A DNA stretch of 64,000 bases from Pseudomonadota bacterium. Its GTDB lineage: Bacteria; Pseudomonadota; Alphaproteobacteria; Rhodobacterales; Rhodobacteraceae. Shown piece after piece: positions 33,143 to 58,483 of this stretch. The notes beneath the pieces were generated by a model. The model ran no database searches, was not told where the DNA came from, and saw only the letters and a program-made list of their open reading frames with translations. The position numbers were made by a program, and so were the translations under genes. The stretch covers positions 1-64,000 of the forward strand of contig JAIUPC010000012.1 of NCBI GenBank assembly GCA_020161655.1, given 5' to 3'. Each line of letters begins with the position of its first letter. Positions within the stretch are counted from its first letter, which is position 1.

Positions 33143-33309
33143 CGTCAGGAAACCCCTTCGCGCGGCCCGAGCGGCCTGTCGTCACTTTAGGCCCGGATGT
33201 GGCGATAGGGAATGACTGGCGCAACGGCGTCACAGGTCCTTGATCGCGGATTGTGTTGGGCCCCGGTCGCCGCCATGATCCCGACTGCCACCTGCCGAAG
33301 GACCGGACC

Positions 33310-34924: not shown

Positions 34925-35767
34925 GTGACGCAAGGGATGGCGGGCGAAGGGCTTGATCTGAAATTCTGGGGCACGCGCGGCAGCCTGCCGACGGCATCGC
35001 CGGAGCACAGCGAATTCGGCGGCTGCACCATGTGCGTCGAGCTTCGGTTCGGCGAGGCCGTGATCTTCTTCGACGCAGGGTCGGGCCTGCCCTTTGCCGG
35101 CAAAGAGCTTTGGGCCGAGGGCCGGCGCGATTTCCACATCTTCTTCACCCATGGCCATTACGACCACATCATGGGCCTGCCGTTCTTCCTGCCGGTCTAC
35201 AAGCCCGAGACGCGGCTGACGATGTGGTCAGGCCATCTCGGCCCCGGCGGGACCACGGCCGAGATGGTCGCCGATTTCATGCGCCAGCCGTTCTTTCCGG
35301 TCGGGCCGGAGGTCTTCAAGGCGAAGGTCGAGATGCGCGACTTCAACGCGGGCGATACGCTCACGCCGGTCGAGGGGCTGACCATGCGCACGGCGATGCT
35401 CAACCATCCCGGCGGCGCGGTCGGATATCGGGTGGAATGCGCGGGCAAGATCATCGCCATGGTCTTCGATACCGAACATGAGCCGGGGCAGGTTGATCCG
35501 GTGGTCCTCGACCTGATGCGGGGGGCCGACCTCGTGCTTTACGACAGCAATTTCACCGATGCCGAGTTCGATTGCTTCCGCACCTTCGGCCATTCGACCT
35601 GGCAGGAGGGCATTCGGCTTGCCAAGGCCGCCGGGGCGAAGCGGATCGCTTTCGTCCATCATTCGACCTTCCGCACCGATGCCGAGCTGCTCGAGATCGA
35701 GACGGAAGCGCAGAGGCTTTTCCCCGGCGCCTTCTGCGCGCGGGACTTCCAGGTGGTCAGCGTTTAG
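34925..35767 (+). CDS. Metallo-beta-lactamase-fold hydrolase, candidate phosphodiesterase
   Basis: The 280-aa metallo-hydrolase has LKFWGTRGSLPT at the start, FFTHGHYDHIMGLPFF (the HxHxDH zinc motif), a third His in AMLNHPGGAVGYR and C-terminal HHSTFRTDAELLEIE. The N-terminal block and spacing put it near the RNase Z/PhnP/class II cyclic phosphodiesterase branch. With the cNMP-binding gene directly upstream it could be a cyclic-nucleotide phosphodiesterase; that is inference. The GTG start at MTQGM is uncertain, with an ATG four codons later. Confidence 0.82.
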   Translation: MTQGMAGEGLDLKFWGTRGSLPTASPEHSEFGGCTMCVELRFGEAVIFFDAGSGLPFAGKELWAEGRRDFHIFFTHGHYDHIMGLPFFLPVYKPETRLTMWSGHLGPGGTTAEMVADFMRQPFFPVGPEVFKAKVEMRDFNAGDTLTPVEGLTMRTAMLNHPGGAVGYRVECAGKIIAMVFDTEHEPGQVDPVVLDLMRGADLVLYDSNFTDAEFDCFRTFGHSTWQEGIRLAKAAGAKRIAFVHHSTFRTDAELLEIETEAQRLFPGAFCARDFQVVSV

Positions 35768-39619: not shown

Positions 39620-39685
39620 CCTTTGCGACGGCCGATGGCGCCGAACCCCGCCCGTATCCCGAAGGTCCCGCAACTCTGCAGAACC

Positions 39686-40870
39686 CTATTTGTACGGATC
39701 GGCGGCATCGCGTAATCCGTCTCCGAGGAAATTGAAAGCCAGAATGACGAGGATCACGGGAACGACCGGCAGCATCAACCAAGGGTAGAGTGCGATGATA
39801 TTCACGCTTCGCGCCTCGGTCAGCAAGATGCCCCAGCTGGTGATCGGCGGCCTGAGGCCGATACCAAGGAAACTGAGCGCGGTTTCGCCAAGGATCATGC
39901 CGGGGATGGTCAGGGTGGCGGATGCGATGAGATGCGACATGAAGCCGGGGATCATGTGCTTGCCGATGATCCGCGCGCTGCCGGCGCCCATGAGGCGCGC
40001 GGCCAGCACGTAATCTTCTTCGCGAAGGGCCAAAAGCTTGGATCTTACGGCCCGTGCAAGGCCGGTCCAGTCGAGCATGCCGAGGATCACGGTGATGCAG
40101 ACATAGACGAAGATCGGGCTCCAGGTCACGGGGATGATCGCCGCCAGCGCCATCCAGAGCGGGATCGAGGGGATCGACTGGAGAACCTCGATCACCCGCT
40201 GGATCACCGCGTCGAACCAGCCGCCGCGATAGCCGGCGATGCCGCCGATGACGATGCCAAGGACGAAACTCATCGTCACGCCGAGGATGCCGATGGTGAG
40301 CGATATGCGCGCGCCGTAGATGATCCGCGACAACACGTCGCGGCCGAGCCGGTCGGTTCCGAGCAGGAAGAACTCGCCGTCCTCCGCCGGACAGACGAGG
40401 TGCAGGTTCCCCGGAATCAGCCCCCAGAAGTTGTAGTCGTCGCCGCGGCAGAAGAAGCGCAGCTTTTCGACCTTGGCCGGATCGTCGGTGTAGTTGCGCC
40501 GCATCGTCTCCATGTCGAGCGTCATGGTGCGGCCGTAGACGAAGGGGCCGACGAAGGCGCCGTCGTTGAACAGATGCACCCTTTGCGGGGGCGCATAGAT
40601 GTGATCGAGGTTGCGGGTGTCCTGCTGGTAGGGCGACAGGAACTCGCAGATCAGGATGCCGGCATAGACCACGGCCAGGAAAACAAGCGAAATCAGCGCA
40701 ACGCGATGGCGCTTGAACTGCCACCACATGAGCTGGCGCTGCGTCGCCTCGGCCATCGCATCGACGCGGCCTTCGGCCTCGTTCGGATCGAAGGGCCGGT
40801 CCGAGACGAAATGGGCGAGGGGGGCGCCGGATTCGGGCAGGCCATTGCGCCGGAAACTGCTGTTGCTCAT
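39686..40870 (-). CDS. Peptide-type ABC transporter permease (DppC/YejE-like)
   Basis: The 394-aa permease carries the DppC-type core (GTDRLGRDVLSRIIYGARIS, then the EAA-like loop EDYVLAARLMGAGSARIIGKH). Between helix 1 and helix 2 there is a periplasmic insert of about 90 residues (YAPPQRVHLF to FWGLIPGNLH) with two Cys. Such inserts are known in YejE-like permeases. It overlaps the DppB gene by four bases (ATGA). Confidence 0.92.
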   Translation of the reverse strand: MSNSSFRRNGLPESGAPLAHFVSDRPFDPNEAEGRVDAMAEATQRQLMWWQFKRHRVALISLVFLAVVYAGILICEFLSPYQQDTRNLDHIYAPPQRVHLFNDGAFVGPFVYGRTMTLDMETMRRNYTDDPAKVEKLRFFCRGDDYNFWGLIPGNLHLVCPAEDGEFFLLGTDRLGRDVLSRIIYGARISLTIGILGVTMSFVLGIVIGGIAGYRGGWFDAVIQRVIEVLQSIPSIPLWMALAAIIPVTWSPIFVYVCITVILGMLDWTGLARAVRSKLLALREEDYVLAARLMGAGSARIIGKHMIPGFMSHLIASATLTIPGMILGETALSFLGIGLRPPITSWGILLTEARSVNIIALYPWLMLPVVPVILVILAFNFLGDGLRDAADPYK

Positions 40871-41865
40871 TTCGCGGTCCCTACGCCAAGCCGGATGCGC
40901 GGGTCGAGAAGTGCCAGCGCGATGTCTGAGACAAGGACGCCGACCACAGTCAGGAAGGCGAGGAACATCAGGAACGATCCCGCCAGATACATGTCCTGGC
41001 TTTGCAGCGCCCGGATCAACATCGGGCCGGTGGTTTCAAGCGACAGGACGATGGCCGTCACCTCGGCGCCCGAGATGATCTGCGGCAGGATCGAGCCGAT
41101 GTCGGAGATGAAGAAGTTGAGCGCCATGCGCAGTGGATATTTCCTCAGCACCTTGCCGGGCGGCAGGCCCTTGGCGCGGGCAGTGATGACATATTGCTTC
41201 TGGAGTTCGTCCAAGAGGTTGGCCCTCAGCCGCCGCACCATGGCGGCGGTGCCGGCGGTGCCGATGATGATGACGGGGATCCAGATATGGGCGAGGACCG
41301 ACTGGAACTTGGCCCAGCTCATCGGCTCGCCGAGGTACTGGCTGTCCATCAGGTTGCCGATCGAAAGCCCGAACCAGACGTTGGCGAAATACATCATGAC
41401 GAGCGCCAGCATGAAGTTCGGGATCGCAAGCCCGATGAGGCCAAGGAAGGTCAGCCCGTAGTCACCCCAGCTGTACTGATGCGTCGCCGAATAGATGCCG
41501 ATGGGAAAGGCAATGGCCCAGGTGAATAGGATGGTCACGGTCGAAAGCAGGATGGTCAGCCAGAGCCGGTCGCCCACGACCTCGTTCACCGGCATGCGGT
41601 ACTCGAAGGAATAGCCGAAATCGCCCTGAAGCATCCCGCCGACCCAGCGGAAGTAGCGGACATACTGCGGCTGGTCGAAGCCGTATTTCTCACGCAAAAG
41701 GTCGATCTCGGCGAGGTCGGCATCCTCGCCCAGCGCCTTCAACTCGGCGACATAGCTTTCGAAATAGTCGCCGGGCGGCAGTTCGATGATGGTGAAGACG
41801 AGGATCGACGTCAGAAACAGTGTCGGGATCATGGTCAGGATGCGCTTGATGATGTAGCGGAACAT
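40867..41865 (-). CDS. Peptide-type ABC transporter permease (DppB-like)
   Basis: The 332-aa permease has the typical start MFRYIIKRILTMIPTLFLTS, six helices and the conserved loop QKQYVITARAKGLPPGKVLR. It forms the pore with the DppC-like protein. It follows the binding-protein gene by one base. Confidence 0.94.
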   Translation of the reverse strand: MFRYIIKRILTMIPTLFLTSILVFTIIELPPGDYFESYVAELKALGEDADLAEIDLLREKYGFDQPQYVRYFRWVGGMLQGDFGYSFEYRMPVNEVVGDRLWLTILLSTVTILFTWAIAFPIGIYSATHQYSWGDYGLTFLGLIGLAIPNFMLALVMMYFANVWFGLSIGNLMDSQYLGEPMSWAKFQSVLAHIWIPVIIIGTAGTAAMVRRLRANLLDELQKQYVITARAKGLPPGKVLRKYPLRMALNFFISDIGSILPQIISGAEVTAIVLSLETTGPMLIRALQSQDMYLAGSFLMFLAFLTVVGVLVSDIALALLDPRIRLGVGTAK

Positions 41866-41866
41866 C

Positions 41867-43755
41867 CTAGGCCTCTTCGAAAAAGAAGGTGTCGGGCAGG
41901 TAGGCGCCGAAGAAGCTCAAGGGCTCGAAGCCGAACAGCGCATCCTCGGGTACATTCTGCAGTCGCGCCGAACGGACCACCGGTTGCAGCGCGCCATTGA
42001 CGGTGCCGATGGAAAAGACCTGATCGGCCCAGATGGTCAGCATCCGGCCCCAGACTTCGGCACGCTCGGATTGTTCGGCGCTGTCGCCCCAAAGCTGGAG
42101 AAGCCTCAGAAGCTCAAGCACCTCGGGCAGTTTCGGCGCCTCGCCAGTCGACCCGGCGGCGGCGTGCCAGCTGCCCCAGAGCGGCCATTGCAACTGATCG
42201 CCGGTGCTGGGCGCGATCTCTTCCGGCGACATGTCGGCGGTGGGCACGCCATTGTCGAGACCGGACCAGACCGACATCTGCACCTGCCCGGCAAGGGCGC
42301 GGCTGCGGAAGACGTCACGCTGCGAGGTGCGGATGTAAAGCGCCAGTCCAACCTCGCGGAAATGGTCGCGGACAAGCTCGAGCACATCCGTCTCAAGCGG
42401 GTTCTCGCCCGCCGATTCCACCACGATGCCGGCCTGCCGCCCGTCCTGCAGGCGGCGGATGTCGCCCGGGCCCCGGACATTCAGCCCCAGCTCGTCAAGA
42501 AGCTGGTTGGCAAGGTCGGGATCATACTGCGCCCAGGCGCTGGCATATTCCGGCTTGAAGAGCGGGCTTTCCGGCAGCACCGTATCCGCGCTTTCGCGGC
42601 CAAGGCCGAAGAAGAGCGCCTTGTTGATCTCTTCCCGCTTGATCGCCACCGACATCGCCCGACGCATCCGCACATCGCGGAACAGTCCCTGCCAGACCGG
42701 ATCGACGCAGTTGAGGTTGGGCAGAAGCGTCACCGCCGAGCCCTGGCTCTTGCGCCACAGCGCCACCTTGAGGGGGTGGGTCTTTTCGGCCTTCTTCAGG
42801 AAGGTGTAGTCGTGAAAGCCGAGGCTTATCGCCTGAAGGTCGCTTTCCCCCGTCGCGGTCTTCGCCATGATGACTTCTGACGAGGCGACGTTCAGCGCCA
42901 CCTGGTCGAGATAGGGAAGCTGCGTTCCGGTCTCATCGACGCGGTGGAAGTAGGGGTTGCGTTCGAAGATGAACTGTTCGGCCGGGGGTGCGGTGCGCGG
43001 GCGCCAGGCCTCAAGTGTCGGCAGTTCGGGGTTTTCGGGACGGATGGAGCGCGACATCTTCAGGTGCAGCCGGCGCCAGTCGTCCACGTCCTCTTCCTCG
43101 GCGCGCTTTTGCAGCACCGCTTCGTCGGTGTAGCGGAGGTGGAACTGCTTGAGGTAGCCCGCCGGCATGAAGAGGACGAGGGGCAGGGGGGCGGCAACCT
43201 TCGGCAGGAAATCCGGCATCGGCGCCACGAAGCTGTAGCGGACCGTGATCTCGTCGATGATCTCGAACGTCGCGACCTGACCGTGGGAGATCAGGTCAAC
43301 CGGCGGCCCGCCCTTGTAGAAGTCCTTGTTGTTGATGACGTCTTCCCAGGCGTAGCGGAAATCCTCGGCGGTGAAGGGGGTGCCGTCGGACCAGCGGTGA
43401 CCTTCGCGGAGGTGGAAGGTATAGATCCGCTCCTCCTCAACGTCGCAGGCGGCGAGGATGTCGGGGCGAAGTGCCAGGTCCGGCCCGTAGCACATCAGCC
43501 GGGAATAGCTGTAGATCGGGATGATGCGGATGTCGCGCTGGCCGCCAACGATGGTGGTCAGCCTGCCACCCTGATGGCCCGTCTTGCGGCCCATGCCGGC
43601 AACGTTGATGACACGCGGGTTCTTCGGGAGCCGCGCCGCCTCGGGCGGCAGGTCGCCCTTGACCACCGCCGGGTTCAGAATCGGAGATTCTGCCCGCGCC
43701 ACCAGCGGCAGGAAAAGGCCAGCCGCCGCGCCCGCGATCACCTGCCGACGCCGGA

Positions 43756-43759
<4 letters not shown>
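41867..43759 (-). CDS. Family 5 extracellular solute-binding protein, probable Tat substrate
   Basis: The 630-aa periplasmic binding protein has the signal peptide MIRRRQVIAGAAAGLFLPLV and then ARA. The triple Arg followed by QVIAG resembles a twin-arginine signal. YTFHLREGHRWSDGTPFTAEDFRYAWE is the family signature (split here: LREGHRWSDGTPFTAEDF). Ligands of the family include oligopeptides, murein peptides, sugars and opines; the length (about 600 aa) fits the larger MppA/YejA-type members. Its start overlaps the ATPase stop (ATGA). Confidence 0.92.
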
Positions 43760-45684
<1,925 letters not shown>

Positions 45685-45802: not shown

Positions 45803-46531
45803 TCAGGCGTCTTTCAGAAGCTGGTCGAGTGAGGTCCAACGGCAGCCGGGATGGCCGCGCGTCAGCTCGAAAAGGCTTTCGAGGAACGACCATGCTGCAG
45901 CGTCATGGACGAGGTGGTGGCCGAGAATGCCGATCGGGTCGTCGCCGGGGCGGGCGAGTTCGCGGGCGAGTTCGGCATAAAGCGCATCGGCTGGCCGGCC
46001 GCCGCGCGTGCCGTGCCAGTCGATGAGGTCGACATGGGTGTTGATGACGGCGAGAGGTGCGGGTTTCGGCGGGCCGTAGACCGAGAGGGCGCGGAAGCCC
46101 AATGCCGGCAGCCCGGCCACGACATCGGGCGAGATGCGGTTCCATGGCGGCACCAGCACCGGCGCGAGGCGGGGGCCGTGAAGGCCGCGCAAGGTATCGA
46201 AGCCCTGCGCGAGTTCCGCGAGCACCACCGGGGCCGGGCGATGCGCGCCAAGCTCGGCCTTCTTCTCGCCGGAAGGCGCATGGTTGCGGTGTGCCCAGCC
46301 GTGGACGGCAACCGTGGTCAGGTTTTCGCCCTGAAGCCGTTCGGCGAGTGGGGCGCCGGTCCTTGCCGGAATTGCCGCGAGGGCGAGCGGCACCTGCCAT
46401 GTCTGCGACAGAAGGAGCATCCGGTCGAGCGCTGCCGTGGGTTCCACGGCGTCGTCATCGCGCCACCAGAGCCGGGCGGGCCTCCCCTCGGCGGCGCGGC
46501 GGTCGAGCGCCTGCAGGACCGTATCCCTCAT
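45803..46531 (-). CDS. Polysaccharide deacetylase-like protein
   Basis: The 242-aa protein has an altered NodB/CE4-like pattern: LWWRDDDAVEPT (metal Asp block), TVAVHGWAHRNHAP (His-x3-His metal ligands), LVPPWNRISPDVV and GILGHHLVHD. No signal peptide is visible, so it probably works in the cytoplasm or on a lipid-linked intermediate. Its start overlaps the stop of the glycosyltransferase (ATGA). It may deacetylate an amino sugar in the glycan made by the surrounding transferases. Confidence 0.8.
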   Translation of the reverse strand: MRDTVLQALDRRAAEGRPARLWWRDDDAVEPTAALDRMLLLSQTWQVPLALAAIPARTGAPLAERLQGENLTTVAVHGWAHRNHAPSGEKKAELGAHRPAPVVLAELAQGFDTLRGLHGPRLAPVLVPPWNRISPDVVAGLPALGFRALSVYGPPKPAPLAVINTHVDLIDWHGTRGGRPADALYAELARELARPGDDPIGILGHHLVHDAAAWSFLESLFELTRGHPGCRWTSLDQLLKDA

Positions 46532-47803: not shown

Positions 47804-48286
47804 ATGAGCCGCCTCGACAGCTTCATCCGCCGCCTCGTGGCGCAGCGCGACATCCTGAACCATGTGGCGGCGGACCTGCCGTTGCCGGCGACGGGCGCGA
47901 TCATGGAGCTTGGCCTTGGCAATGGCCGCACCTTCAACCACCTGCGCGAGATATTTCCGACCCGCCGCATCATCGCCTTCGACCGGGCGCTTGGCGCGCA
48001 TGGCTCCTCGATCCCGGACGAGGGCAACCTGATCCTTGGCGAGATCCGTGATACCGCCGCTGGCTTTGCCGGGACCGGGGCGGCGCTTGTCCATGCCGAT
48101 ATCGGCACCGGATACCCTGAAAAGGATGCGGTGACGCTGACCTGGCTGCCGCAATTGGTGGTGTCTCTGCTGGCCAAAGACGGCGTGGCGCTCAGCGGCC
48201 TGCCGCTCGACCAGCCGGGCCTCAAGCCGTTGCCTTTGCCGCCGGGCATCGCCGGGGACCGTTATTTCCTCTACCGCCGCGCCTGA
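47804..48286 (+). CDS. Small class I SAM-dependent methyltransferase
   Basis: The 160-aa protein has the SAM-binding glycine-rich strand IMELGLGNGRTFNHL and the second-strand acidic residue in IIAFDRALGAH. It is short for the family, ending soon after the core sheet. AAGGA lies before the ATG. The substrate is unknown. Its place beside the glycan genes suggests a sugar or lipid methylation, without further support. Confidence 0.78.
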   Translation: MSRLDSFIRRLVAQRDILNHVAADLPLPATGAIMELGLGNGRTFNHLREIFPTRRIIAFDRALGAHGSSIPDEGNLILGEIRDTAAGFAGTGAALVHADIGTGYPEKDAVTLTWLPQLVVSLLAKDGVALSGLPLDQPGLKPLPLPPGIAGDRYFLYRRA

Positions 48287-48295
48287 TCGTTGCCG

Positions 48296-50026
48296 TCAGG
48301 CCGGCACCTCCGCCCCCGGCAGTTGCGTCGCCCGGCGGATCGCATGGACGAGGACCGGCTGGGCAAAGCCGCGCACCTCGGTCAGTTCCGGGCGAAACTC
48401 CGGCGTTTCGGCCAGGCCTGCGCGTTCGGCGGTGGCGGCGGAGAGGACGACTTGAACGCCCAGTTCCTTCGCCTTGCCCTCAAGCCGGCTGGCGAGGTTC
48501 ACCGTCTCGCCAAGGGCAGTCAGCCGCGCGCCGCCGCTTTCGTTCTGCTCGACCGCGCCGATGCGGCCAAGGATCGCCGGGCCGGTATGCAGGCCGATGC
48601 CCATCGACATCGGCGCCGGCAGGGCCTCATGCAGGCTCTGGTTCAGGGCGTCGAGAACGCCGCCCATGGCGCGCACCGCGGCGATGGCCTGACGGGCGCC
48701 GTCATCGGCCGAACTGTCCTTGCCGAAGATCGCCATGATCCCGTCGCCCATGAACTTGTCGACAAAGCCGCCGGTATCCTCGATCGCCTCGGCCATCCGC
48801 CCGAGGAACTGGTTGAGGAGGAACACCACGTCATAGGTCAGGCGGCCCTCGGACATGCTGGTGAAGCCGCGAAGGTCGCAGAACATGATCGTCACCTCAT
48901 GCTCCACCCCCCAGAGATACTGGTCGAAGGTCTGGCTGCCGCCGCGTGTCATCTGCGCGGGCAGCAGCGTCGAGATGGTCATGTCGCCGGTCGGATAGAC
49001 CTGGCAGGCAAGGCGCACGTTCGGCGGCGCACCCACCCGCTTCAGGACCTGCAATTCCCGCTCCGAGGGCGGCGCGAGGTTCTCCTGCCCGGTCAGCACC
49101 CTGACCCGGCAGGTGGAACAGCGCGCCCGCCCGCCGCAGACCGAGGCATGGGGGATGTTGTTGATCCGGCTGATCGCCAGCAGCGAAAGCCCGCGCGGCA
49201 CCCGCACCGTGGCGCCGCTGGTGTAGCTGATCGCGATGCGTGAACCGAGCCGGTTGGCAACGAGAAGCATCGCCCAGGCGAAAAGCGCGAGGCCGAGCAC
49301 GATGAGGTAGCTTGCGCGAAGATCGTCGATCAGCCCCAGCGCCCGCGCATACTGCTCAGGCTCGATCGGGTCCGGCACCCGAAGTTCAAGCCGGACTTTC
49401 TGCGCGGCGCTGATGTAACCGGCATAGGCGAGCGCCGGGATCAGCACCGCGAGCCCGTACCAGAGCCAGAGCTGGTTGTGATACCAGGCCTTGCCGGCAA
49501 GCCAGTTGTTCAGCCCGATGCAGGCATGGACCCAGCCGAGGGTGATCATTAGGGCGAGGTTCCAGCCGTCGCCGGGCCAGCTGGACCAGAGCACGAAGAC
49601 ATAGTCGTCCTGGATACCAAAGAGCTCATTGACGCCGCGCGTCCCGACGACGTGGCGGATCAGGAGGAACGGAAAGAGCAGGCCAAAGACCAGTTGCACG
49701 ATGCTCCAGCGGCCGATGCGCCAGGTCTGCACCTGCATCAGCCGGCTGATGCCGAGGACGAAGTGGACGGTGGCGGCAAGGATCAGGATACCGGTGCCGA
49801 AGGGATTGCGGGTGATGGTGATCCGCACCTGCCGCATCGCCTCCATCGCGTCGATCGAGACAAGGCCGAGCGAATGGTTGATGAGGTGAAAGAGCAGGAA
49901 GGTGAAGAGGACGAGCGCGGAGATCGTGCGCAGGCGCGCCGCGTTGAGGCCGCCCCGGCGCGTCATCTGCCGTCGCGCGCCACGCAGCCACATCGCCACC
50001 GAGCGGTTGGTTGCCTCGTCGCTCAT
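48296..50026 (-). CDS. Redox-type class III adenylate cyclase: heme-b-like membrane anchor, 2Fe-2S domain, cyclase
   Basis: The 576-aa protein has three parts. Residues 30-260 hold about six hydrophobic helices with His at about 47, 51, 88, 125, 167 and 183, suited to bind b hemes. Residues 265-355 are a plant-type ferredoxin domain with Cys 297, 303, 306 and 341. Residues 370-560 are a class III cyclase with FCDLRGFT (Asp 384), VDKFMGDGIMAIFG (Lys 424, Asp 428) and VNLASRLE. This is the layout of Sinorhizobium CyaC, a cyclase controlled by quinone redox state through a diheme anchor. All catalytic residues are present. It lies 31 bases downstream of a second cyclase gene. Confidence 0.9.
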   Translation of the reverse strand: MSDEATNRSVAMWLRGARRQMTRRGGLNAARLRTISALVLFTFLLFHLINHSLGLVSIDAMEAMRQVRITITRNPFGTGILILAATVHFVLGISRLMQVQTWRIGRWSIVQLVFGLLFPFLLIRHVVGTRGVNELFGIQDDYVFVLWSSWPGDGWNLALMITLGWVHACIGLNNWLAGKAWYHNQLWLWYGLAVLIPALAYAGYISAAQKVRLELRVPDPIEPEQYARALGLIDDLRASYLIVLGLALFAWAMLLVANRLGSRIAISYTSGATVRVPRGLSLLAISRINNIPHASVCGGRARCSTCRVRVLTGQENLAPPSERELQVLKRVGAPPNVRLACQVYPTGDMTISTLLPAQMTRGGSQTFDQYLWGVEHEVTIMFCDLRGFTSMSEGRLTYDVVFLLNQFLGRMAEAIEDTGGFVDKFMGDGIMAIFGKDSSADDGARQAIAAVRAMGGVLDALNQSLHEALPAPMSMGIGLHTGPAILGRIGAVEQNESGGARLTALGETVNLASRLEGKAKELGVQVVLSAATAERAGLAETPEFRPELTEVRGFAQPVLVHAIRRATQLPGAEVPA

Positions 50027-50057
50027 CGGGTTGCGCCCGTCCTATGCCCGGTGCCGG

Positions 50058-51458
50058 TCATGCCAGCACCACGAGGTCAAGCTGGCCGGAGAAGCCGGGG
50101 ATATGCCGGCCGCGCCGGATCGCCACGACCTTGTCGTCGAAGCCCTGCGCGACGGCGCGGTCATAGGTCCGGCCCTCGGTCAGAGCCCGGCTGACCTCGA
50201 TCTTGTTGGCGGCCTCAAGCTTGGCGGCGAGGTTGACGGGCGTGCCGATCACGGTGAATTCGAGCCGGTTCCGGGCGCCGACCACGCCCACAGTCGCGGT
50301 GCCGCAGGCGGCGGCACAGCAGGCATGGAACGGTCCGATCCACCCGGCGGCGCGCACCTCGGGCTCCACCGCGTCGATGGCGGCGACAAGCGCCGCCGCC
50401 GTTCGGAGGGCATCGGCGGCATGGGTCGGGCTTTCCTCGACCGCGCCGAAGGTGGCGAGAATGCCGTCGCCCATGAACTTGTCGATCTGCCCGCCATGAC
50501 GCTCGATCTCGCCCACGGCTGCCTGCTGGTAAAGGCCAAGCACCTTCATCACCGTCTCCGGCGAGAGGCTGGCCGCCGAGGTGGTGAAGGACCGAAGATC
50601 GACGAAGAGGACCGAAACCTCGCGCGTCTCGGACCGCCCGGCCATCGGCAGGTCTTCGGAGCCGGTGATCGTCTCGGCGACCGCCGGATCGAAGAACTGC
50701 CTGAGGTCCGAGGCGGCGGCATTGCCGTGGACGGCGTTGACGAGTGCGGCCCTCGCGCGGACAAGGGCAAGCGAAAGCACCAGCGTCACCCCCATCAGCG
50801 ACAGCATCTTGGTGACTTCCACGTCGATGAAGATGCTGTTGGATGTCAGGTAGATGACCATGTTGTTCGTGATGTACATGTCGCTCTGCTCGGACTGGAC
50901 GGCGTAGGTCACGAGGGCGAACCAGCCCACGGTCGAGGCAAGCCCGGTGATGAGGACAAAGCGCGGGTCGAAGCGCAGGGCGCGGACACCGATGAAGACG
51001 AACATGTAGATCATGTTCGGGGTCTTCAGGTAGAAGGACGGCGGCTGGTTGTATTGAAGGTGGAGCGAAAAGATCAGCGCGCAAAGCAGCGTGACGTCGG
51101 CAAGGATCGACAGCACCAGAAACCATGTCGGCAGCGTGATCCGGTAGGAAAGCCATAGCCGGAAGATGGTGAAAGTCAGGTAGAGCGACAGCGCCACCGG
51201 CGTGAAGTTCGCGCCGCTGCCGCCGACCAGGGGCCGACCGCCGATGAAGTACACTGTGCTGAAGACGGCCATGAGCGCCAGCTGGACCCAGCCGATCAGC
51301 CGTTCCGCGATCTCTTCGCGGCGGGTGATCTCGGCGCGTACGCGGGCGGGAATCTCGCTTTCCGACGGGCTTGCGAGCATCGCCTTGAACGTCCTGAGGA
51401 GGCCTTCGGAATTTCCGGTCAAGCGCGGTTTCCTGTCACGCGGTACTGCGGGAATCAT
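50058..51458 (-). CDS. Membrane-anchored class III adenylate/guanylate cyclase
   Basis: The 466-aa protein has an N-terminal membrane domain of about six helices (53-235; GWVQLALMAVFSTVYFIGG to MLSLMGVTLVLSLALV) and a C-terminal cyclase (about 275-450). Metal residues Asp 287 (FVDLRSFT) and Asp 331 (DKFMGDG) and substrate Lys 327 are present. The usual transition-state Arg in NLAARLE is Lys 413 (NLAAKLE). That change is seen in some rhizobial cyclases, so activity is possible but not assured. The start MIPAVPRD is favoured over a longer frame overlapping the phosphatase gene. Confidence 0.88.
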   Translation of the reverse strand: MIPAVPRDRKPRLTGNSEGLLRTFKAMLASPSESEIPARVRAEITRREEIAERLIGWVQLALMAVFSTVYFIGGRPLVGGSGANFTPVALSLYLTFTIFRLWLSYRITLPTWFLVLSILADVTLLCALIFSLHLQYNQPPSFYLKTPNMIYMFVFIGVRALRFDPRFVLITGLASTVGWFALVTYAVQSEQSDMYITNNMVIYLTSNSIFIDVEVTKMLSLMGVTLVLSLALVRARAALVNAVHGNAAASDLRQFFDPAVAETITGSEDLPMAGRSETREVSVLFVDLRSFTTSAASLSPETVMKVLGLYQQAAVGEIERHGGQIDKFMGDGILATFGAVEESPTHAADALRTAAALVAAIDAVEPEVRAAGWIGPFHACCAAACGTATVGVVGARNRLEFTVIGTPVNLAAKLEAANKIEVSRALTEGRTYDRAVAQGFDDKVVAIRRGRHIPGFSGQLDLVVLA

Positions 51459-51511
51459 CTTACATCTTTCACGAACGGTTGCATCCGGGATGCGGGGCCT
51501 GCCCGCCGCCG

Positions 51512-52096
51512 TCATCCCTGAGGCGGGGCCAGTTCGTCGATCGCTCCGCCGGGGCGCAGGCGATAGACGACGCCCTGCGGCGCAGGAAGATGCACCGTAT
51601 CATCCAGCGAGAGACCACCATGCAGCCCGCGGATCAGCCGGCCGGAGATGCCGTGGCTGACAAGGACCACATCGCCGGGATGGCCTGCCGCATCCTTCAG
51701 GACCGAGGCGAGTCGCGCCGTCAGGCCGTCGAGACCTTCGCCCTCGGGAGCATTGAGCTTCCACTGCCGCGGCGGGTGCTTCTTGCGGATGCCGGGCCAG
51801 CCGGCGTCGATCTCGGTCCGGGTCAGGCCTTCCCAGATGCCGAAGGAGGCCTCGGCCAGTCGTGGTTCAACCTTCAGTGCCGCGCCGGGCAGTCCGGCGG
51901 CCACCAGACGCGCGGTTTCCGCGGCCCGGATGAGGGGGCTCGTCCAGATCGAGGGGGCTGTAACCTCCGCTGCGATCAGCGCGCCGCAGGCCCGTGCCTG
52001 GTCGCGCCCGAAGTCGGTCAGGGGCGAATCCATCTGCCCCTGCAGCCGCCCTTCAAGATTGAACTCCGTCTGGCCATGCCTGAGGAGGTAGATCAT
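51512..52096 (-). CDS. Histidine phosphatase (phosphoglycerate-mutase-like)
   Basis: The 194-aa protein has the nucleophile motif LLRHGQTEFN at residues 4-13, Arg/Glu pocket blocks (SPLIRAAETA, ASFGIWEGLT) and the second His in VLVSHGISGRLIR. The size and motifs fit the cobalamin/broad-specificity branch. It is the first gene of the three-gene minus-strand set that continues with two cyclases. It is divergent from the pseudo-ABC gene. Its substrate is unknown. Confidence 0.9.
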   Translation of the reverse strand: MIYLLRHGQTEFNLEGRLQGQMDSPLTDFGRDQARACGALIAAEVTAPSIWTSPLIRAAETARLVAAGLPGAALKVEPRLAEASFGIWEGLTRTEIDAGWPGIRKKHPPRQWKLNAPEGEGLDGLTARLASVLKDAAGHPGDVVLVSHGISGRLIRGLHGGLSLDDTVHLPAPQGVVYRLRPGGAIDELAPPQG

Positions 52097-52371
52097 GCCC
52101 TGGCCCGTGCCTTGCCCTTCGCGACGGTGCGAAGCTTCCTTCTATCTGGAACACGGCCCGACCAGAAGCCCGATCAGAAACGTCACAAGGAAGTGACGCC
52201 GTTGCGGGCAGGGGATGAAAACACTTGCAACACCGGGCCTGCTGAGCGAAGCCTGCGACGTTGCCGGCGTGAAAATCGGCTATTCCAGTTGAGTTTGACG
52301 GCGGGGGGCGAGAATGTCCTGCCTGCCAACCCGGTGACCAGACAGCATCGGTGCCCGACGAGCGAAGCGCG

Positions 52372-55089
52372 ATGGAACGAAACATCTTCCGATACATCTG
52401 GAATTTCTCGCGCCCCGAGCAGGTGGTCGTTGTGATGCTCGTCGTCATCTCGATGATCCCCTACTACCTGGCCTTCGACCTGCCGAAGCAGATCGTCAAC
52501 GGGCCGTTGCAGGGCCAGGGTTTCGATACGCCGGGCAGCACCCAGCCCTTCATGGCGCTGTCCTTCGACATACCGTTCATCGGCACCATCCATCTGACGG
52601 ATGGCGTCCAGCTTGAACGCCTCCCGCTTCTTGTCGCTCTGAGTTTCACCTTCCTCGGGCTGGTCATCGTCAACGGCCTCTTCAAATACGTCATCAACAC
52701 CCGCAAAGGGATGCTCGGCGAACGCCTGCTTCGCCGCGGCCGCTACGTCCTCATCGACCGCATCCTCCGGTTCAAGCCGGGCCGGGTGGCGCAGATGAAG
52801 TCGGGCGAAGTCGCCAGCATGGTCAAGGACGAGATCGAGCCCTTGGGCGGCTTTTCGGCCGATGCCTTCACCCAGCCGGTGCTTCTCGGCGGGCAGGCGA
52901 TCACCGCGCTGGTCTTCATCTTCGTCCAGCACTTCTGGCTCGGTACGGTCGCCGGCGTCCTTGCCGTGGTGCAGGTCGCGATCATCCCGCGCATGCGTCG
53001 CCGGCTGATCTTCCTTGGCCGGGAACGCCAGCTTACGGCGCGTGAACTGGCGGGACAGGTCGCCGAGATCGTCGACGGCATCCAGACCATCCACGCCAAT
53101 GACGCCAGCAACCTCGTCAGGGCGCGGGTTTCCGCGCGGCTCGGGCGGATCTTCAAGATCCGCTACGACATCTACCAGTGGAAGTTCCTGGTGAAGTTCA
53201 TCAACAACTTCATCGCCCAGATCACGCCCTTCTTCTTCTACCTCATCGGCGGCTACCTGACGATCATCGGCTCGCTCGACGTGGGCCAGCTCATCGCCGT
53301 CATCAACGCCTACAAGGAACTGCCCGGCCCGATGAAGGAACTGATCGACTGGGACCTCGCGCGGCAGGACGTGCAGGTGAAGTACGAGCAGATCGTCGAG
53401 CAGTTCGATGCCGACGAGATGATCGACCCCGAATTGCAGAGCCTCGATGCCGAGGTGCCGCCCGGCAGCCTCGATCCCCTTGCCGCGCAGCGGCTGACGG
53501 TGCTTGGCGGCAACGGCGTCCAGATCCTCGACAATGTCAGTTTCGCCGTCAACGAGGGCGATTTCACAGCGCTCGTCGGCGCATCTGCCGATGGCGCGCC
53601 GGTTCTCGGCGATGTTCTCGGCGGGCAGGTCGCGCCGAGCAGCGGTTCGATCATGCTTGGCGACCATGATGTGAGCCAGCTGCCCGAGCGGGTGACGGGC
53701 CGGGTGATCGGTTACACCGGGCAGTCGCCGTTCCTCGAGTCCGAATCCGTTCTCAGCAACGTGACCTACGGGCTGATGCGGCGACCGGCACCGATACCGG
53801 AGGGCGAAGAACCGGCGATCCGGGAACATCGCCTCTGGGCGCACCGCGAATCCGCGCGCACCGGCAACCCGGTCCTCGATGTCGATGCCGACTGGATCGA
53901 CTATGACGCGGTCCAGCCTGTGCCGGGCAAGGAAAACCTCATCGGCTCCGTCTGCGAGGTTCTCGATGTGGTGGGACTGGGCGAGGACATCATCGGTTTC
54001 GCGCTCCGCTCGCGGCTGAATGTCAGCAAGCAGCCGGAACTGGCGGAAGAGGTGCTGGCGCTGCGCCGTGCGCTCAGTGGCCGCCTTGCCGAACAGGACC
54101 TCGCCGATATCGTCCACCCGTTCCGGCCCGACCAGTACAATTCGGAGGCGACGACCCTTGAGAACCTGCTCTTCGGCGTACCCTCGGACGCCTCGACCTC
54201 GGCCGACGACATCCTCGCCCATCCCTTCTTCGAGGCGACGCTGCGCGACACCGGCCTTGGCGCGATGCTCTTCGATCTCGGCTGGCAGTTCGCCAGCGAT
54301 ACGGTGGAGCTTTTCGAAAGCTCGCAAGGCAACCCCGAGATGCTGCAATGGCTGACCCATGTCCGGCCCGAGGAATTGCCCGCCTACCAGCAGACATTGG
54401 CCCGCACCGCGCCGGGCGGAGTGGCGGCCGCCACGCGCGAGGATGTCACCCGGCTGATCCTCCTGGCCTTCCAGTATGTCGAACCGGTCTACCGTTTCGG
54501 CCTTCTCGACGACGCGCGGCGCGACAAGCTCATTGCCGGGCGCGAGGCGCTGGCCGACCGGGTACCGGCCGACCTGCGCGGGCGGCTGCAACGCTATGAC
54601 CCCGACGTCTACCTGAACAACGCGACGCTGGCCGACAACATCCTCTTCGGCAAGCTCAACCGGCGTTTCGTGCGGGCGGAAGAGAAGATCGACGAGATCA
54701 TGCGCACCGCGCTGCGCGAGCTTTTCGACCGCAAGCCCGCGGTGCGGGACGAGATCATGTCGGTCGGCCTCGGCTATTACGTCGGGCCGAACGGTCGCAG
54801 GCTGACGCAGATCCAGCGCCAGAAGATCGTGCTGGCGCGGTCGCTGATCCGCAAGTCGCGCTACTATGTCTTCAATGAACCCCTGGCTGGGGCGGACCCC
54901 GGCCTGCAGCGCCGCGTCATTCGCCACATCCTGCGATTCCTCGCCGCGCAGACGCCACGGCCCGGCGTCGCCTGGGTGCTGACAAACGCAGATCTGGCCG
55001 CGGATTTCGACAGGCGGGTGGAACTGCAGAAGGGCCGTATCGTGGCGGAAACTCAGGCCCGCGAGGAGAACGCGGCAGCGGTCGTCTGA
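52372..55089 (+). CDS. Degenerate ABC-exporter-like membrane protein (pseudo-ATPase with large insert)
   Basis: The 905-aa protein is built like an ABC exporter half-transporter: a membrane domain (about 1-330, four or more helices, coupling-type SGEVASMVKDEIE) and an ATPase-like C-terminal half. The ATPase site is damaged. Walker A reads GASADGAPV (403-411) without Lys, the signature is LTQIQRQKI (811-819) rather than LSGGQ, Walker B is YVFNEP (832-837) with Asn for Asp, and the H-loop His is missing. An insert of about 280 residues splits the domain, and a Q-loop-flank-like block recurs three times. The start is ATG 52372 or GTG 52351. ATP hydrolysis is unlikely; a sensor or scaffold role is more plausible. 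Confidence 0.82.
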   Translation: MERNIFRYIWNFSRPEQVVVVMLVVISMIPYYLAFDLPKQIVNGPLQGQGFDTPGSTQPFMALSFDIPFIGTIHLTDGVQLERLPLLVALSFTFLGLVIVNGLFKYVINTRKGMLGERLLRRGRYVLIDRILRFKPGRVAQMKSGEVASMVKDEIEPLGGFSADAFTQPVLLGGQAITALVFIFVQHFWLGTVAGVLAVVQVAIIPRMRRRLIFLGRERQLTARELAGQVAEIVDGIQTIHANDASNLVRARVSARLGRIFKIRYDIYQWKFLVKFINNFIAQITPFFFYLIGGYLTIIGSLDVGQLIAVINAYKELPGPMKELIDWDLARQDVQVKYEQIVEQFDADEMIDPELQSLDAEVPPGSLDPLAAQRLTVLGGNGVQILDNVSFAVNEGDFTALVGASADGAPVLGDVLGGQVAPSSGSIMLGDHDVSQLPERVTGRVIGYTGQSPFLESESVLSNVTYGLMRRPAPIPEGEEPAIREHRLWAHRESARTGNPVLDVDADWIDYDAVQPVPGKENLIGSVCEVLDVVGLGEDIIGFALRSRLNVSKQPELAEEVLALRRALSGRLAEQDLADIVHPFRPDQYNSEATTLENLLFGVPSDASTSADDILAHPFFEATLRDTGLGAMLFDLGWQFASDTVELFESSQGNPEMLQWLTHVRPEELPAYQQTLARTAPGGVAAATREDVTRLILLAFQYVEPVYRFGLLDDARRDKLIAGREALADRVPADLRGRLQRYDPDVYLNNATLADNILFGKLNRRFVRAEEKIDEIMRTALRELFDRKPAVRDEIMSVGLGYYVGPNGRRLTQIQRQKIVLARSLIRKSRYYVFNEPLAGADPGLQRRVIRHILRFLAAQTPRPGVAWVLTNADLAADFDRRVELQKGRIVAETQAREENAAAVV

Positions 55090-55455
55090 GCCGTTCCTGC
55101 GAGGAAGCCCGGCCTTGCGACAACGCGGTGCCGAGTCTCGGCAACTCCCGCAAAAGCCGAGACGCGGAGCACTTCTTCTGCTCAAGGTCGTTCTTGCGGC
55201 ACTTGGTTTACCGCTAACATCCAGTCAGATGCTGGTATTTTGCCGGTTTGGTCGCGGCGCGCGACGGCATTCCGGGCAAGCCAATTGCCGCAAAAGCCTT
55301 TTTCTGCAACATTATGATCATTAACGCCGAAGGGTGGGGCGTATCGCTGCCGCATGATCGAGCCGCGCGGTCGGTTTGAACTTCGCTTACTGCATCGGTG
55401 GTTGCGACGTACAGGTGCATATTTTTGTATCCCATGAGCGTCGGAGTGATCTGCG
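55090..55455. other. 366-base leader before the FecR-domain gene
   Basis: No gene is seen. An 8-bp stem GTCTCGGC/GCCGAGAC (55135-55163, 13-base loop) may end the previous transcript, without a T tail. The stretch 55170-55460 is clearly more AT-rich than its neighbours, including TTATGATCATTAACG and ATATTTTTGTATCCC, and probably holds the promoter of the FecR and cyclase genes. Confidence 0.5.
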
Positions 55456-56214
55456 ATGGCGGTACCTCTTATTGTTGCGCTGTTGTTCATTGGTTCATTG
55501 GTTTTTCCCGCTGCTCCTGTCCTGGCGCAGCCGGTGGGCAGCGTGGTCCGGGTCGTGCAGGGCGCGACACTCGAAAGGTCCGGGCAGGCGGTGAGCCTTC
55601 GCGCCGGTCAAACGATCGAAAGCGGCGACGTGATCTCCACCGATCGTCGGGGACAGGTCCAGCTTCTTTTCAATGACGACACCCGGATTGCCGTCGGCCC
55701 GAACTCGTCGATGGCGGTCGATGACATCCGCTTCAAGCAGAACGGCAAGGCCCGGAAATTCGCGGTCTCCGCCGTCGCCGGTGGTTTCCGTTTCCTCAGC
55801 GGCACAAGCGCACGGTCGGCCTACGCGATCAGCACCCCCACCGCGACGATGGGCATTCGCGGCACCGCCTTCGACTTCGTGGTGCGCAACACCGATGGCA
55901 CCGACCTCATCATCTTCTCCGGTCTCGTCAACATGTGCGGGGGGGGCGGCTGCTACCAGGCAGCGGGTGGCTGTGACGCTGTGCGGCTCGATGCGCGCGG
56001 GAACTTCGCCCGCATCGAGCAGAAGAAGGACAAGCGGGAACTGATCAACGACGGGTTCTACTTCGTGACCCAGCAGCAGAAGCTTCGTCAGGACTTCCGA
56101 ACCAATGTGCGCTCCTGCGGGCGCGATGTCATCTCAAGGCCGGTGCCCAAGGCCGGCGACCGTACACCTCCGCCGCCACCGAAGGGGCCGCCCGTGGAAC
56201 ACGGCCCAACATAG
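55456..56214 (+). CDS. Secreted FecR-domain protein
   Basis: The 252-aa protein has a Sec signal peptide (MAVPLIVALLFIGSLVFPAA, cleavage after VLA). The FecR beta domain follows: GSVVRVVQGATLERSG, LRAGQTIESGDVISTDRRGQ, TRIAVGPNSSMAVDDIRF, and TPTATMGIRGTAFDFVV. The C-terminus is Cys- and Pro-rich (GGGGCYQAAGGCD, PPPPPKGPP). There is no N-terminal anti-sigma region, so it is a periplasmic or surface protein and not a classic FecR. GGAG lies nine bases before the ATG. The CHASE2 cyclase follows. Confidence 0.88.
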   Translation: MAVPLIVALLFIGSLVFPAAPVLAQPVGSVVRVVQGATLERSGQAVSLRAGQTIESGDVISTDRRGQVQLLFNDDTRIAVGPNSSMAVDDIRFKQNGKARKFAVSAVAGGFRFLSGTSARSAYAISTPTATMGIRGTAFDFVVRNTDGTDLIIFSGLVNMCGGGGCYQAAGGCDAVRLDARGNFARIEQKKDKRELINDGFYFVTQQQKLRQDFRTNVRSCGRDVISRPVPKAGDRTPPPPPKGPPVEHGPT

Positions 56215-56302
56215 CAGGGGCTGACCGCGCGCCCGGCAGTCCCAGATTGCCGTGCGAGACGGTCAATGGTTCTGATCGGGCCGAAAGGCAGCCGCCCGCG
56301 AA

Positions 56303-56319
56303 GCCGGGCAAGCTGCCCG
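56303..56319. promoter_or_regulatory. Hairpin between the FecR gene and the CHASE2 cyclase
   Basis: CCGGGCA-AGC-TGCCCGG is a perfect 7-bp stem about 25 bases before the cyclase start. It could attenuate or stabilise the message between the two genes. It has no T tail, so termination is unlikely. Confidence 0.4.
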
Positions 56320-56344
56320 GTCGCGCCGGGGGAAATCGGAGTTA

Positions 56345-58483
56345 ATGCAGCGCATCGGGTTCATCGGCATCGGCATTCTGCTTCTGATCCTGATGGTCGC
56401 CATCCGGATAATCGACCCCTACCCGGTGCGGGCGGTCAGGCTTTTCTACTTCGACTATGCGCAGCGCTTCGACCCGCGCGAATACGCCAACCTTCCTGTG
56501 CGGGTGGTCGACATCGACGACGCCTCCCTGACGCTGCTTGGCCAATGGCCTTGGCCGCGCGACCGGATCGGCGCCCTTGTCACCCGACTGACCGAGGACT
56601 ACGGCGCTGCCGCCGTCGTCTTTGACGTACTCTTTTCCGAACCCGACCGCCTGTCGCCGGCGCGGATCCTTATCCGCCCGGAGATATCCAGCCTCCTCAA
56701 GGCCCCCCCGAGGGAGGAACAACTCGACGCGCTCGACAATGACAAGCAGCTTGCGCGGGCGATGGAGGGGCACAATGTGGTGCTCGGGCTTGCCGCGGCG
56801 CCGACGGACCGGCCGACTTCGACGCCGGGAAAAGCCGGCGTCGTGCAGATCGGGGCGGAGCCGGGGCAGGGGCTGATCACCTATCTGGGCACAACGTCGA
56901 TCGTGCCGGACCTCTGGAATGCTGCTGCGGGCATCGGCGCCATCAACGTCAGCCCGGTCGACGCCTCCGAAACGGTGCGGATGGTGCCGGTGATGTGGAA
57001 CTCCCCGCAGGGCATCCTTCCCGGCATGGCTTTCGAGGCGCTGCGCGTCGTTCTGGGCGAAAGCACCATCGTCATCAACGGCCCGTCGGAGGCACCGGGC
57101 GTCACCACCTCGGTCCAGATCGGCGACTACGAGATTCCGACGACGCCGGATGGCCAGGTCTGGGTCCGCTACCGCCATGAGGACCCGGCCCTCTATGTTC
57201 CCGCCCGGGCGATCCTTGCCGCCGGCTATGACGAAGCGATCCGCGCCAAGCTGGAGGGCCAAATCGTCTTCGTCGGCACCTCCGCCGCCGGCCTTCTCGA
57301 CATCCGTTCGACCCCCTTGGGTGAGAACGTGCCCGGCGTGTCGATCCATGCGCAGATCCTCGAACAGGTCCTGACCGGGGAATATCTGGTGCGGGACGAT
57401 TACATCTCGGGGCTGGAGATCATCGCCTTCATCTGCCTTTCCGGCATCATCATCGCCGTGATGTCGATGGCCGGACCGGCGCTGTCGATGGCCGTGGGCG
57501 GGGTCTCGGCGCTGTTCGTTCTCATCATCAGCGGTGTCTTCTTCCAGCGCGGCGTTCTTTTCGACGCCACCTTTCCGATGTTCGGCGGGCTTGCCGTGTT
57601 CATGGTCCTCGCCTCCTACCAGTTCATCATCGCGGATCGGGAGAAGCGCCTGATCCGCAAGTCGTTTTCCCATTACGTGGCCCCTTCCGTCCTGAAGGAG
57701 ATCGAGAAAAGCGGCCATGAGCTTGAGCTTGGCGGACAGGTGCGGAACCTCACTGTGATGTTCTGCGACCTGAGGAACTTCACGCCCCTCAGCGAAACCA
57801 TGCAGCCCGCCGATCTGGTGTCGATGCTGAACAACCTCTTCAGCCAGTTCTCCGACTGCGTTCTTGATGAGCAGGGCACGATCGACAAGTTCGTGGGCGA
57901 TTCGATCATGGCCTTCTGGAATGCGCCCCTGGAGACCGAGGATCACCGCCGCATGGCCTGCCAAGCTGCCCTGAACATCCGCAAGGCGCTGGTGGAGTTC
58001 AACACGCCGCGGATCGAGGTCGGGCTGCCGCGTCTTGCCGTTGGCGTCGGGCTATGCTCCGGCCCGGCCTGCGTCGGCAATATCGGTTCACGCCAGCGCT
58101 ACAGCTATTCGGCGATCGGCGACACGGTGAACGTCGCGGCGCGGATGGAGGCGAGCTGCCGCTACCTTGGCTATGACGTGGTGATCTCCGAAGACACGCA
58201 TTCCGGCATCCGCGGCATGGCGGCACTTCCGGCCGGAAAGATCGGGCTCAAGGGGAAAACCGAACGGGTGCCGATGCACGTCCTTGTCGGCGATAATGCG
58301 GTGGCGGCAAGCCCGGGATTTGCCGAATTGCAGGCGCTGCATCAGGCGCTGATGGAGGAGATTTCAGTGACACGGAGATACGGCCAGGAGGCTTTCGAGC
58401 GCTGCCGGGCAGCGGCGATCCGGGTCGAGCCGGGGCTGCAGAAGTTCTACGACAAGCTTTCGGAGAGATTGCTGGATTTCTGA
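56345..58483 (+). CDS. CHASE2-domain class III adenylate cyclase
   Basis: The 712-aa inner-membrane sensor has an N-terminal helix (4-22) and a periplasmic CHASE2 domain (about 35-345: VVDIDDASLTLLGQWPWPRD, VVFDVLFSEPD, FVGTSAAGLLDIRSTPL). Three helices follow (about 355-430), then a cyclase domain (about 465-650) with FCDLRNFT (Asp 475), IDKFVGDSIMAFW (Lys 515, Asp 519) and VNVAARME. All catalytic residues are present. CHASE2 domains sense unknown extracytoplasmic cues. The FecR-domain protein just upstream is the natural candidate partner in the periplasm. Confidence 0.93.
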   Translation: MQRIGFIGIGILLLILMVAIRIIDPYPVRAVRLFYFDYAQRFDPREYANLPVRVVDIDDASLTLLGQWPWPRDRIGALVTRLTEDYGAAAVVFDVLFSEPDRLSPARILIRPEISSLLKAPPREEQLDALDNDKQLARAMEGHNVVLGLAAAPTDRPTSTPGKAGVVQIGAEPGQGLITYLGTTSIVPDLWNAAAGIGAINVSPVDASETVRMVPVMWNSPQGILPGMAFEALRVVLGESTIVINGPSEAPGVTTSVQIGDYEIPTTPDGQVWVRYRHEDPALYVPARAILAAGYDEAIRAKLEGQIVFVGTSAAGLLDIRSTPLGENVPGVSIHAQILEQVLTGEYLVRDDYISGLEIIAFICLSGIIIAVMSMAGPALSMAVGGVSALFVLIISGVFFQRGVLFDATFPMFGGLAVFMVLASYQFIIADREKRLIRKSFSHYVAPSVLKEIEKSGHELELGGQVRNLTVMFCDLRNFTPLSETMQPADLVSMLNNLFSQFSDCVLDEQGTIDKFVGDSIMAFWNAPLETEDHRRMACQAALNIRKALVEFNTPRIEVGLPRLAVGVGLCSGPACVGNIGSRQRYSYSAIGDTVNVAARMEASCRYLGYDVVISEDTHSGIRGMAALPAGKIGLKGKTERVPMHVLVGDNAVAASPGFAELQALHQALMEEISVTRRYGQEAFERCRAAAIRVEPGLQKFYDKLSERLLDF

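Follow-up and report, generated by a model that had tools for sequence, protein, structure and literature searches.

Cyclic-nucleotide-gated channels are membrane proteins under the control of a cyclic-nucleotide-binding (CNB) domain, and CFTR and SUR are proteins of the ATP-binding cassette (ABC) fold turned into a channel and a channel regulator, respectively, which still bind ATP. Heterodimeric ABC exporters with one degenerate site exist, and the CNB proteins of the TIGR03896 family sit in cyanobacterial transport operons of the bacteriocin type. In Sinorhizobium meliloti, CyaC is described as a redox-regulated, quinone-responsive adenylate cyclase carrying a di-heme B and a [2Fe-2S] cluster (PMC10463352); the CHASE2 cyclase CyaD1 and the FecR protein SMc02177 of this species are encoded close together (PMC5498481). 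Here we analyzed a 64,000-nucleotide stretch of a Rhodobacteraceae genome (contig JAIUPC010000012.1, positions 1 to 64,000; the whole stretch is called the window), in which an ABC-exporter-like protein with degenerate ATPase motifs (the pseudo-ABC protein, P0004) is encoded in one locus with class III nucleotide cyclases, glycosyltransferases and a small CNB protein. An earlier note on this DNA had delimited six genes (three cyclases, a histidine phosphatase, the pseudo-ABC protein and a FecR-domain protein) as one system in which several signals converge on one cyclic-nucleotide pool.

The core of the locus is the pseudo-ABC protein together with the CNB protein, which had been overlooked. 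We see about an even chance that the locus as a whole, judged from its sequences, is a cyclic-nucleotide-controlled surface-glycan system with an ATP-independent ABC-fold protein in control.

Results

The Pseudo-ABC Protein and Its CNB Partner

The locus set consisted of the window and 119 other pseudo-ABC loci; gene contents are given for 118 of the latter, the relative L075, with a 91%-identical pseudo-ABC protein, being set aside. A gene counted as present if the flanking sequence fetched for the locus held a match at E 1e-4, and a stricter count was made at 100 bits or more. The flanks vary in length and some contigs stop beside the pseudo-ABC gene, so that where genes are absent the counts are lower bounds. 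Nor are the 120 loci independent: L190 and L193 both come from S. meliloti, and L176 and L199 are apparently one record under two labels.

The CNB gene was located directly downstream of the pseudo-ABC gene or fused to it in 108 of the 118 loci and elsewhere in the locus in three, giving 111 matches in total (90 at 100 bits or more). It was not found within the fetched flanks of the remaining seven loci; in two of these, L100 and L107, the sequence stops within or at the pseudo-ABC gene. In the window, the CNB is a stand-alone protein of 154 residues with a TTG start (34432..34896, plus strand), which matched PF00027 with 75.2 bits against a cut-off of 27.5 (E 3.9e-21) and had no match to a DNA-binding domain. 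Its phosphate-binding cassette, GEISIICNVARTATV, contains the Gly-Glu pair and the Arg. Across the 112 CNB-bearing loci, the window included, the Gly occurred in all 112 and the Arg in 111; the Glu was retained in 96, while 13 had Asp and three had Gln in its place. A strict pattern of the binding motif matched 74 of the loci. As far as these residues tell, the CNB retains what is needed for cyclic-nucleotide binding, and binding of cyclic AMP (cAMP) or cyclic GMP is predicted. By open frame, the CNB is fused to the pseudo-ABC protein in 21 of the 112 loci and stands alone in 91. The cassette Glu was found in 85 of the 91 stand-alone proteins; the fused clade may be altered in specificity, because it keeps this Glu in just 11 of 21 sequences, with Asp replacing it in ten. 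The Ala two places after the Arg is kept in 5 of the 21. In the Rhodobacteraceae clade L109–L124, the genomes carry one to three pseudo-ABC copies, mostly with a fused and partly degenerate CNB, and accD lies just downstream in six loci of this clade.

The pseudo-ABC protein of the window (52351..55089, plus strand, 912 residues; Pfam ABC_membrane and a split ABC_tran) is composed of a type IV ABC-exporter membrane domain and a nucleotide-binding domain (NBD) interrupted by an insertion of about 310 residues. Translation probably starts at ATG 52372, the matching position being also where the homologues begin; with this start, the divergent region of 275 bases described in the earlier note fits. 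Both an exporter-type membrane domain and an NBD fold were recognized, and the fold matches were type IV ABC exporters, with SUR also among the matches. The Walker A and B motifs are degenerate (GASADGAP and FNEP), and the GK[ST] plus D-E combination of an active exporter was not found in P0004. Within the family, GK[ST] was kept in 3 of 107 sequences and a full Walker A plus D-E/Q in one. By these motifs the ATPase residues are lost across the family, in keeping with the earlier description of a catalytically dead transporter-like protein.

It might be argued that the pseudo-ABC protein is an ordinary exporter half that moves the glycan, with a partner supplying the ATPase and the CNB merely tuning the activity. 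In favour of this, its membrane domain shows strong conservation and similarity to real exporters, and the matches include TmrAB and TM287/288, heterodimeric exporters with one degenerate site. We nevertheless consider this unlikely, as Walker A and B together survive in only 1 of the 107 sequences and the sole other ABC ATPase of the window cassette is the Opp-type double ATPase of an importer. No exporter half was noticed among the neighbour clusters, only part of which were identified; the search did not extend to partners encoded elsewhere.

At E 1e-40, the pseudo-ABC protein was detected in 40 of 198 genomes of the same family and 96 of 289 genomes of the class. Of the 30 named genome loci, 29 had it; the match in L104 was at chance level, and this locus was excluded. 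Many plasmids and chromids of Rhizobium and Sinorhizobium carry a member of the family, which at E 1e-60 occurred in 262 plasmid records. The match splits into two pieces in several records of S. meliloti pSymB (L190, L193), strain 1021 included, which suggests a broken gene there; in other S. meliloti strains it is in one piece. The congeneric genome G010 had no match at E 1e-40, which makes the locus an accessory one within the genus.

Redox Cyclase P0001 and Its Co-Occurrence with the Pseudo-ABC Protein

Cyclase P0001 (48296..50026, minus strand) carries a membrane domain with five conserved His residues, a Fer2 domain (E 2.1e-9) and a Guanylate_cyc domain (PF00211). Among ten aligned sequences, H47 and H51 were conserved in 8 of 8 and H88, H125 and H167 in 9 of 9 of those with a letter at the position; the membrane His residues could hold two hemes B. 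C297, C303, C306 and C341 were found in all ten. The catalytic site of the window protein is complete, with the metal-binding Asp and the Lys, Asn and Arg present. By domain order, P0001 is assigned to the type of Sinorhizobium CyaC, and a redox response is predicted. The end of this gene contains a palindrome (48384–48399) that fits the Clr-box consensus of S. meliloti.

Co-occurrence was analyzed in the panels of 289 class genomes and 198 genomes of the same family, with the CHASE2 cyclase serving as the control cyclase. P0001 was present in 80 of the 289 class genomes, and 75 of these 80 also had the pseudo-ABC protein, the expected number being 26.6 (odds ratio 134). For the control cyclase, the pseudo-ABC protein was found in 68 of 103 genomes (expected 34.2, odds ratio 11). 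The odds ratio for P0001 was 108 in control-positive and 69 in control-negative genomes; given P0001, those of the control fell to 5.5 (p 0.08) and 3.5 (p 0.01). After collapsing to taxonomic families, 44 of 48 P0001-bearing families had the pseudo-ABC protein, with 15.7 expected if 156 families were sampled (156 being the highest label). The same held within the window's own family, with 24 of 27 genomes for P0001 (expected 5.5), 15 of 29 for the control (expected 5.9) and 4 of 14 for the closest orthologues of the control (expected 2.8). The tie of P0001 to the pseudo-ABC protein is more specific than that of the control cyclase.

Physical linkage was less regular. P0001 lay at most 25.1 kb from the pseudo-ABC gene in 8 of 21 genomes compared, the window's genome included and three of them from one family; the 21 were chosen for having both genes on one contig, out of about 97 genomes with both, and at least one such genome (G358, 571 kb apart) was left out. 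Within the 118 loci, a P0001-type cyclase domain was found in ten (eight at 100 bits or more) and a P0001-type membrane/FeS part in eight. In L105, P0002-type and P0001-type cyclases, DUF3095, the pseudo-ABC protein, the CNB and the hydrolase are encoded in a row, and the set recurs without P0002 in L082, L093, L096 and L195. Class III cyclases gave 12 matches in this genome of 4.08 Mb; three of them are inside 10 kb at the locus and a fourth is at 23187–23714, and the clustering at the locus exceeds chance. The fourth is part of a SAM-domain/class III cyclase/AAA/TPR protein (20646–23945), about 8 kb to the left of the locus.

These data bear on the view that the cyclases have nothing to do with the CNB, the pseudo-ABC protein and the glycan genes, and that signalling genes were gathered in an accessory island by chance or by the habit of such islands. 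The accessory nature of the locus (the lack of a match in G010, the 262 plasmid records), the presence of cyclases in only 19 of the 118 flanks and the independent occurrence of FecR–CHASE2 elsewhere all speak for it. We regard it as quite unlikely, given that the co-occurrence of the CyaC-type cyclase remained specific after control, also at the family level, that this cyclase is close to the pseudo-ABC gene in the eight genomes mentioned above, and that the CNB is itself a cyclic-nucleotide domain.

Alternatively, cAMP might act on transcription of the locus via a CRP-like regulator, as does Clr in S. meliloti, the CNB serving as a decoy or buffer. S. meliloti CyaC is reported to form a complex with Clr and CycR (PMC10463352), and Clr to control polysaccharide genes (PMC5498481). 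The genome encodes five other CNB-domain matches in frames of 252–321 residues, the size of CRP-like regulators, which could supply such a route. Against it, the Clr-box matches in the window, obtained with the consensus of another genus, were only within genes (47461 and 48384), with none in the divergent gap, and the CNB, having no DNA-binding domain match, is coupled to a membrane protein. This explanation appears decidedly improbable to us.

Glycan Cassette and Extent of the Locus

The six genes described before constitute the right part of a 26.5-kb locus (31970–58483). Their open reading frames and domains were borne out by the reading-frame check and Pfam; the range 48296–58483 cuts the locus short, and the CNB, a metallo-hydrolase, DUF3095, the glycosyltransferases and an Opp-type transporter occupy 31970–48286. 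The link to glycans had also been missed. On the minus strand, the cassette encodes the MurG-like glycosyltransferases GT28b (36013..37140, provisional start; PF04101, E 4.9e-12) and GT28a (38402..39673; PF04101, E 1.6e-8), the GT4 glycosyltransferases GT4a (37149..38405; PF00534, E 3.2e-32) and GT4b (P0008, 46528..47637; PF13692, E 5.7e-24), and a deacetylase-like protein (45803..46531), whose homologues are annotated as polysaccharide deacetylases and whose own sequence has no Pfam match. The four genes of the Opp-type importer (39686..45684, minus strand) encode two permeases (39686–40870 and 40867–41865), a solute-binding protein (41867–43759) and the double ATPase (43756–45684). A methyltransferase using S-adenosylmethionine (Methyltransf_17, PF12692, E 1.7e-64) is encoded on the plus strand at 47804..48286, as is a possible glycosyltransferase with a DXD region at 33253..34284, whose match to PF04488 was weak (19.7 bits, below the cut-off of 23).

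At least two of the four cassette glycosyltransferases were present in 80 of the 118 loci (78 at 100 bits or more). Individually, GT4a was found in 79, GT28a in 77, GT28b in 72 and GT4b in 64 loci, and these numbers barely dropped at 100 bits or more (78, 77, 69 and 63, respectively). The Opp ATPase was present in 73 loci, in 65 at 100 bits or more and in 65 at 40% identity or more, the solute-binding protein in 35, OppB in 32, OppC in 30, the deacetylase-like protein in 53 and the methyltransferase in 47. The histidine phosphatase (51512..52096, minus strand; His_Phos_1, PF00300, E 1.8e-41) had homologues in 45 loci, all of them weak (none at 100 bits or more) and every one with GT4b or GT28b as a neighbour; it probably belongs to the glycan cassette. 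The annotation of Rhizobium etli p42e lists, among others, a cyclase, DUF3095, a nucleotide-sugar dehydrogenase, a second cyclase, four Opp genes, three glycosyltransferases, the pseudo-ABC protein and the CNB, and variants of the gene set are seen in S. meliloti pSymB, Phyllobacterium and Azospirillum records. On a Shinella plasmid, no cyclase is annotated within 16 kb on either side.

Directly downstream of the CNB gene, the plus strand encodes a hydrolase of the metallo-beta-lactamase fold (34925..35767; PF12706), present in 11 of the 118 loci. Its kinship to cyclic-nucleotide phosphodiesterases is weak: the match to NF041851 (E 1.2e-10) reached 41 bits where the cut-off is 400, and RNase Z models scored higher. 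The enzyme could end the signal.

Other Cyclases of the Locus and Neighbouring Genes

The second membrane class III cyclase, P0002 (50058..51515, minus strand; Guanylate_cyc), carries Lys at the expected position of the transition-state Arg, because of which its activity is uncertain; it may have weak activity or a regulatory role. At E 1e-30 it was found in 14 of the 198 family genomes, 13 of them with the pseudo-ABC protein (expected 2.8). Three of the four strong matches (E 3.2e-90 or better) came from genomes with the pseudo-ABC protein, and in those three P0002 is beside P0001; besides the window, G166 and G175 show this arrangement with the P0001 orthologue. The P0002-type cyclase domain was found in three of the 118 loci and its membrane part in two.

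The CHASE2 receptor cyclase P0006 (56345..58483, plus strand; CHASE2 PF05226 and Guanylate_cyc PF00211) has the gene of a FecR-domain protein adjacent to it (55456..56214, plus strand; PF04773, signal peptide by eye). At 19 of 20 other CHASE2 cyclases, FecR was encoded within about 0.7 kb, and in all 13 closest places (L201–L213) it was upstream on the same strand. One of the 20 places, in G148, has a pseudo-ABC copy 10.8 kb off; the other copies listed are on different contigs or far away. Conversely, FecR was found in none of the 118 pseudo-ABC loci, CHASE2 in one and the P0006-type cyclase domain in ten (none at 100 bits or more). FecR–CHASE2 is a separate, widespread pair and a local addition to this locus. 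Of the two operons proposed to diverge from the intergenic region, the plus-strand one need not be a single operon, as 366 bases separate the pseudo-ABC gene from FecR and FecR–CHASE2 forms its own pair elsewhere. Nor do the six genes hold together as one system by the neighbourhood criterion that the earlier note had set: the full set recurs only in L075 among the 119 other loci, and neighbourhood conservation fails for FecR, CHASE2, the membrane part of P0002 and the membrane/FeS part of P0001 (0, 1, 2 and 8 of the 118 loci, respectively). The earlier note thus saw a real feature and drew its boundary wrongly; the object of interest is the CNB-coupled pseudo-ABC protein.

DUF3095 (31970..33142, minus strand) was found in 12 of the 118 loci, and 15 of 17 genomes with it had the pseudo-ABC protein (expected 5.6). 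In its structural model the N-terminal half folds like a class III cyclase, and the chain perhaps contains two cyclase-like domains in tandem. A comparison with class III cyclases by hhalign, with five and four sequences only, gave a probability of 0.5%. By the model, the protein may act as a cyclase or sense nucleotides, and the pseudo-ABC locus gives it a context.

Outside the locus, a molybdopterin oxidoreductase with a BFD-type [2Fe-2S] domain, resembling an assimilatory nitrate reductase, is encoded directly to the right (58506–61400), and a Tad-like pilus-assembly protein with DUF7867 to the left (30577–31917). Two adjacent open reading frames with near-identical starts (8910–10531) look, by inspection, like transposase copies.

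Discussion

The earlier suggestion of the pseudo-ABC protein as a target of cyclic nucleotides gains support from the CNB encoded downstream of it or fused to it in 108 of 118 loci and from the co-occurrence of P0001 in 75 of 80 genomes, which point to, rather than prove, such a role. Several observations weigh against a cyclic-nucleotide-controlled glycan system. Only 19 of the 118 loci had a cyclase catalytic domain in their fetched flanks, where about seven would be expected if cyclases were as dense as in this genome, and the cyclase neighbouring the pseudo-ABC gene in L102 has lost catalytic residues. The control cyclase was also enriched, and genome size and phylogeny act as confounders of the co-occurrence. 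In the window itself, 17.5 kb separate the CNB from the pseudo-ABC protein. In the fused clade the CNB is partly degenerate (Glu in 11 and Ala in 5 of 21), and two cassette glycosyltransferases were nearby in only two of the 21 fused loci (L152 and L196). Finally, that the cassette makes a glycan is read from its gene families.

In the mechanism we propose, the CNB would bind the cyclic nucleotide and then dock on the pseudo-ABC protein, whose conformational change would be driven by the ligand instead of ATP. This change would open or close a passage for the glycan or assemble the enzymes for the cassette-made glycan. The metallo-hydrolase may terminate the signal, and FecR–CHASE2 would be a further, periplasmic input that this lineage has acquired. 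The sequences suggest that in many alphaproteobacteria a transporter-shaped protein beside or fused to a CNB, often within a set of genes apparently for the synthesis of a sugar polymer, may be controlled by a signal molecule in place of ATP. It is possible, if on the doubtful side, that these proteins form a new class of membrane effectors: an ABC-exporter scaffold without ATP hydrolysis, gated by cyclic nucleotides via a CNB partner or fused domain, a counterpart of CFTR and the cyclic-nucleotide-gated channels in one device, linking the quinone redox state to surface-glycan release or assembly. Among the entries listed by the literature searches, no description of a CNB-coupled pseudo-ABC protein was seen. 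If the CNB gates the pseudo-ABC protein, bacterial cAMP would act directly on a transporter-like membrane protein, beyond transcription factors, and outside eukaryotes a ligand-gated device would have arisen from the ABC exporter fold. CyaC-type redox cyclases may have the pseudo-ABC/CNB pair as a direct target.

Compared with the known systems, P0001 shares with S. meliloti CyaC the order of a conserved-His membrane domain, the [2Fe-2S] Cys4 motif and a class III cyclase, a likeness of layout. It differs in its surroundings: the known output of CyaC is Clr/CycR, whereas P0001 lies by and co-occurs with the pseudo-ABC/CNB pair. Similarly, the window resembles CyaD1/SMc02177 in having a CHASE2 receptor cyclase with an adjacent FecR gene; that pair is placed beside clr, while the pair of the window adjoins the pseudo-ABC/glycan locus. 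The window CNB is akin to the TIGR03896 proteins in its association with a transport operon, the match being weak (38 bits against a cut-off of 161). With the type IV ABC exporters (MsbA, TmrAB, IrtAB), the pseudo-ABC protein has the membrane domain and NBD fold in common, but it has lost the ATPase residues and gained an NBD insertion and a CNB partner. Like CFTR and SUR, it seems to be an ABC exporter scaffold put to a use other than ATP-driven pumping, here recognized from the fold and the loss of ATPase residues; unlike in CFTR and SUR, a CNB protein appears to take over the control. In contrast to the cyclic-nucleotide-gated channels, the membrane part has the ABC exporter fold and the CNB is mostly a separate protein.

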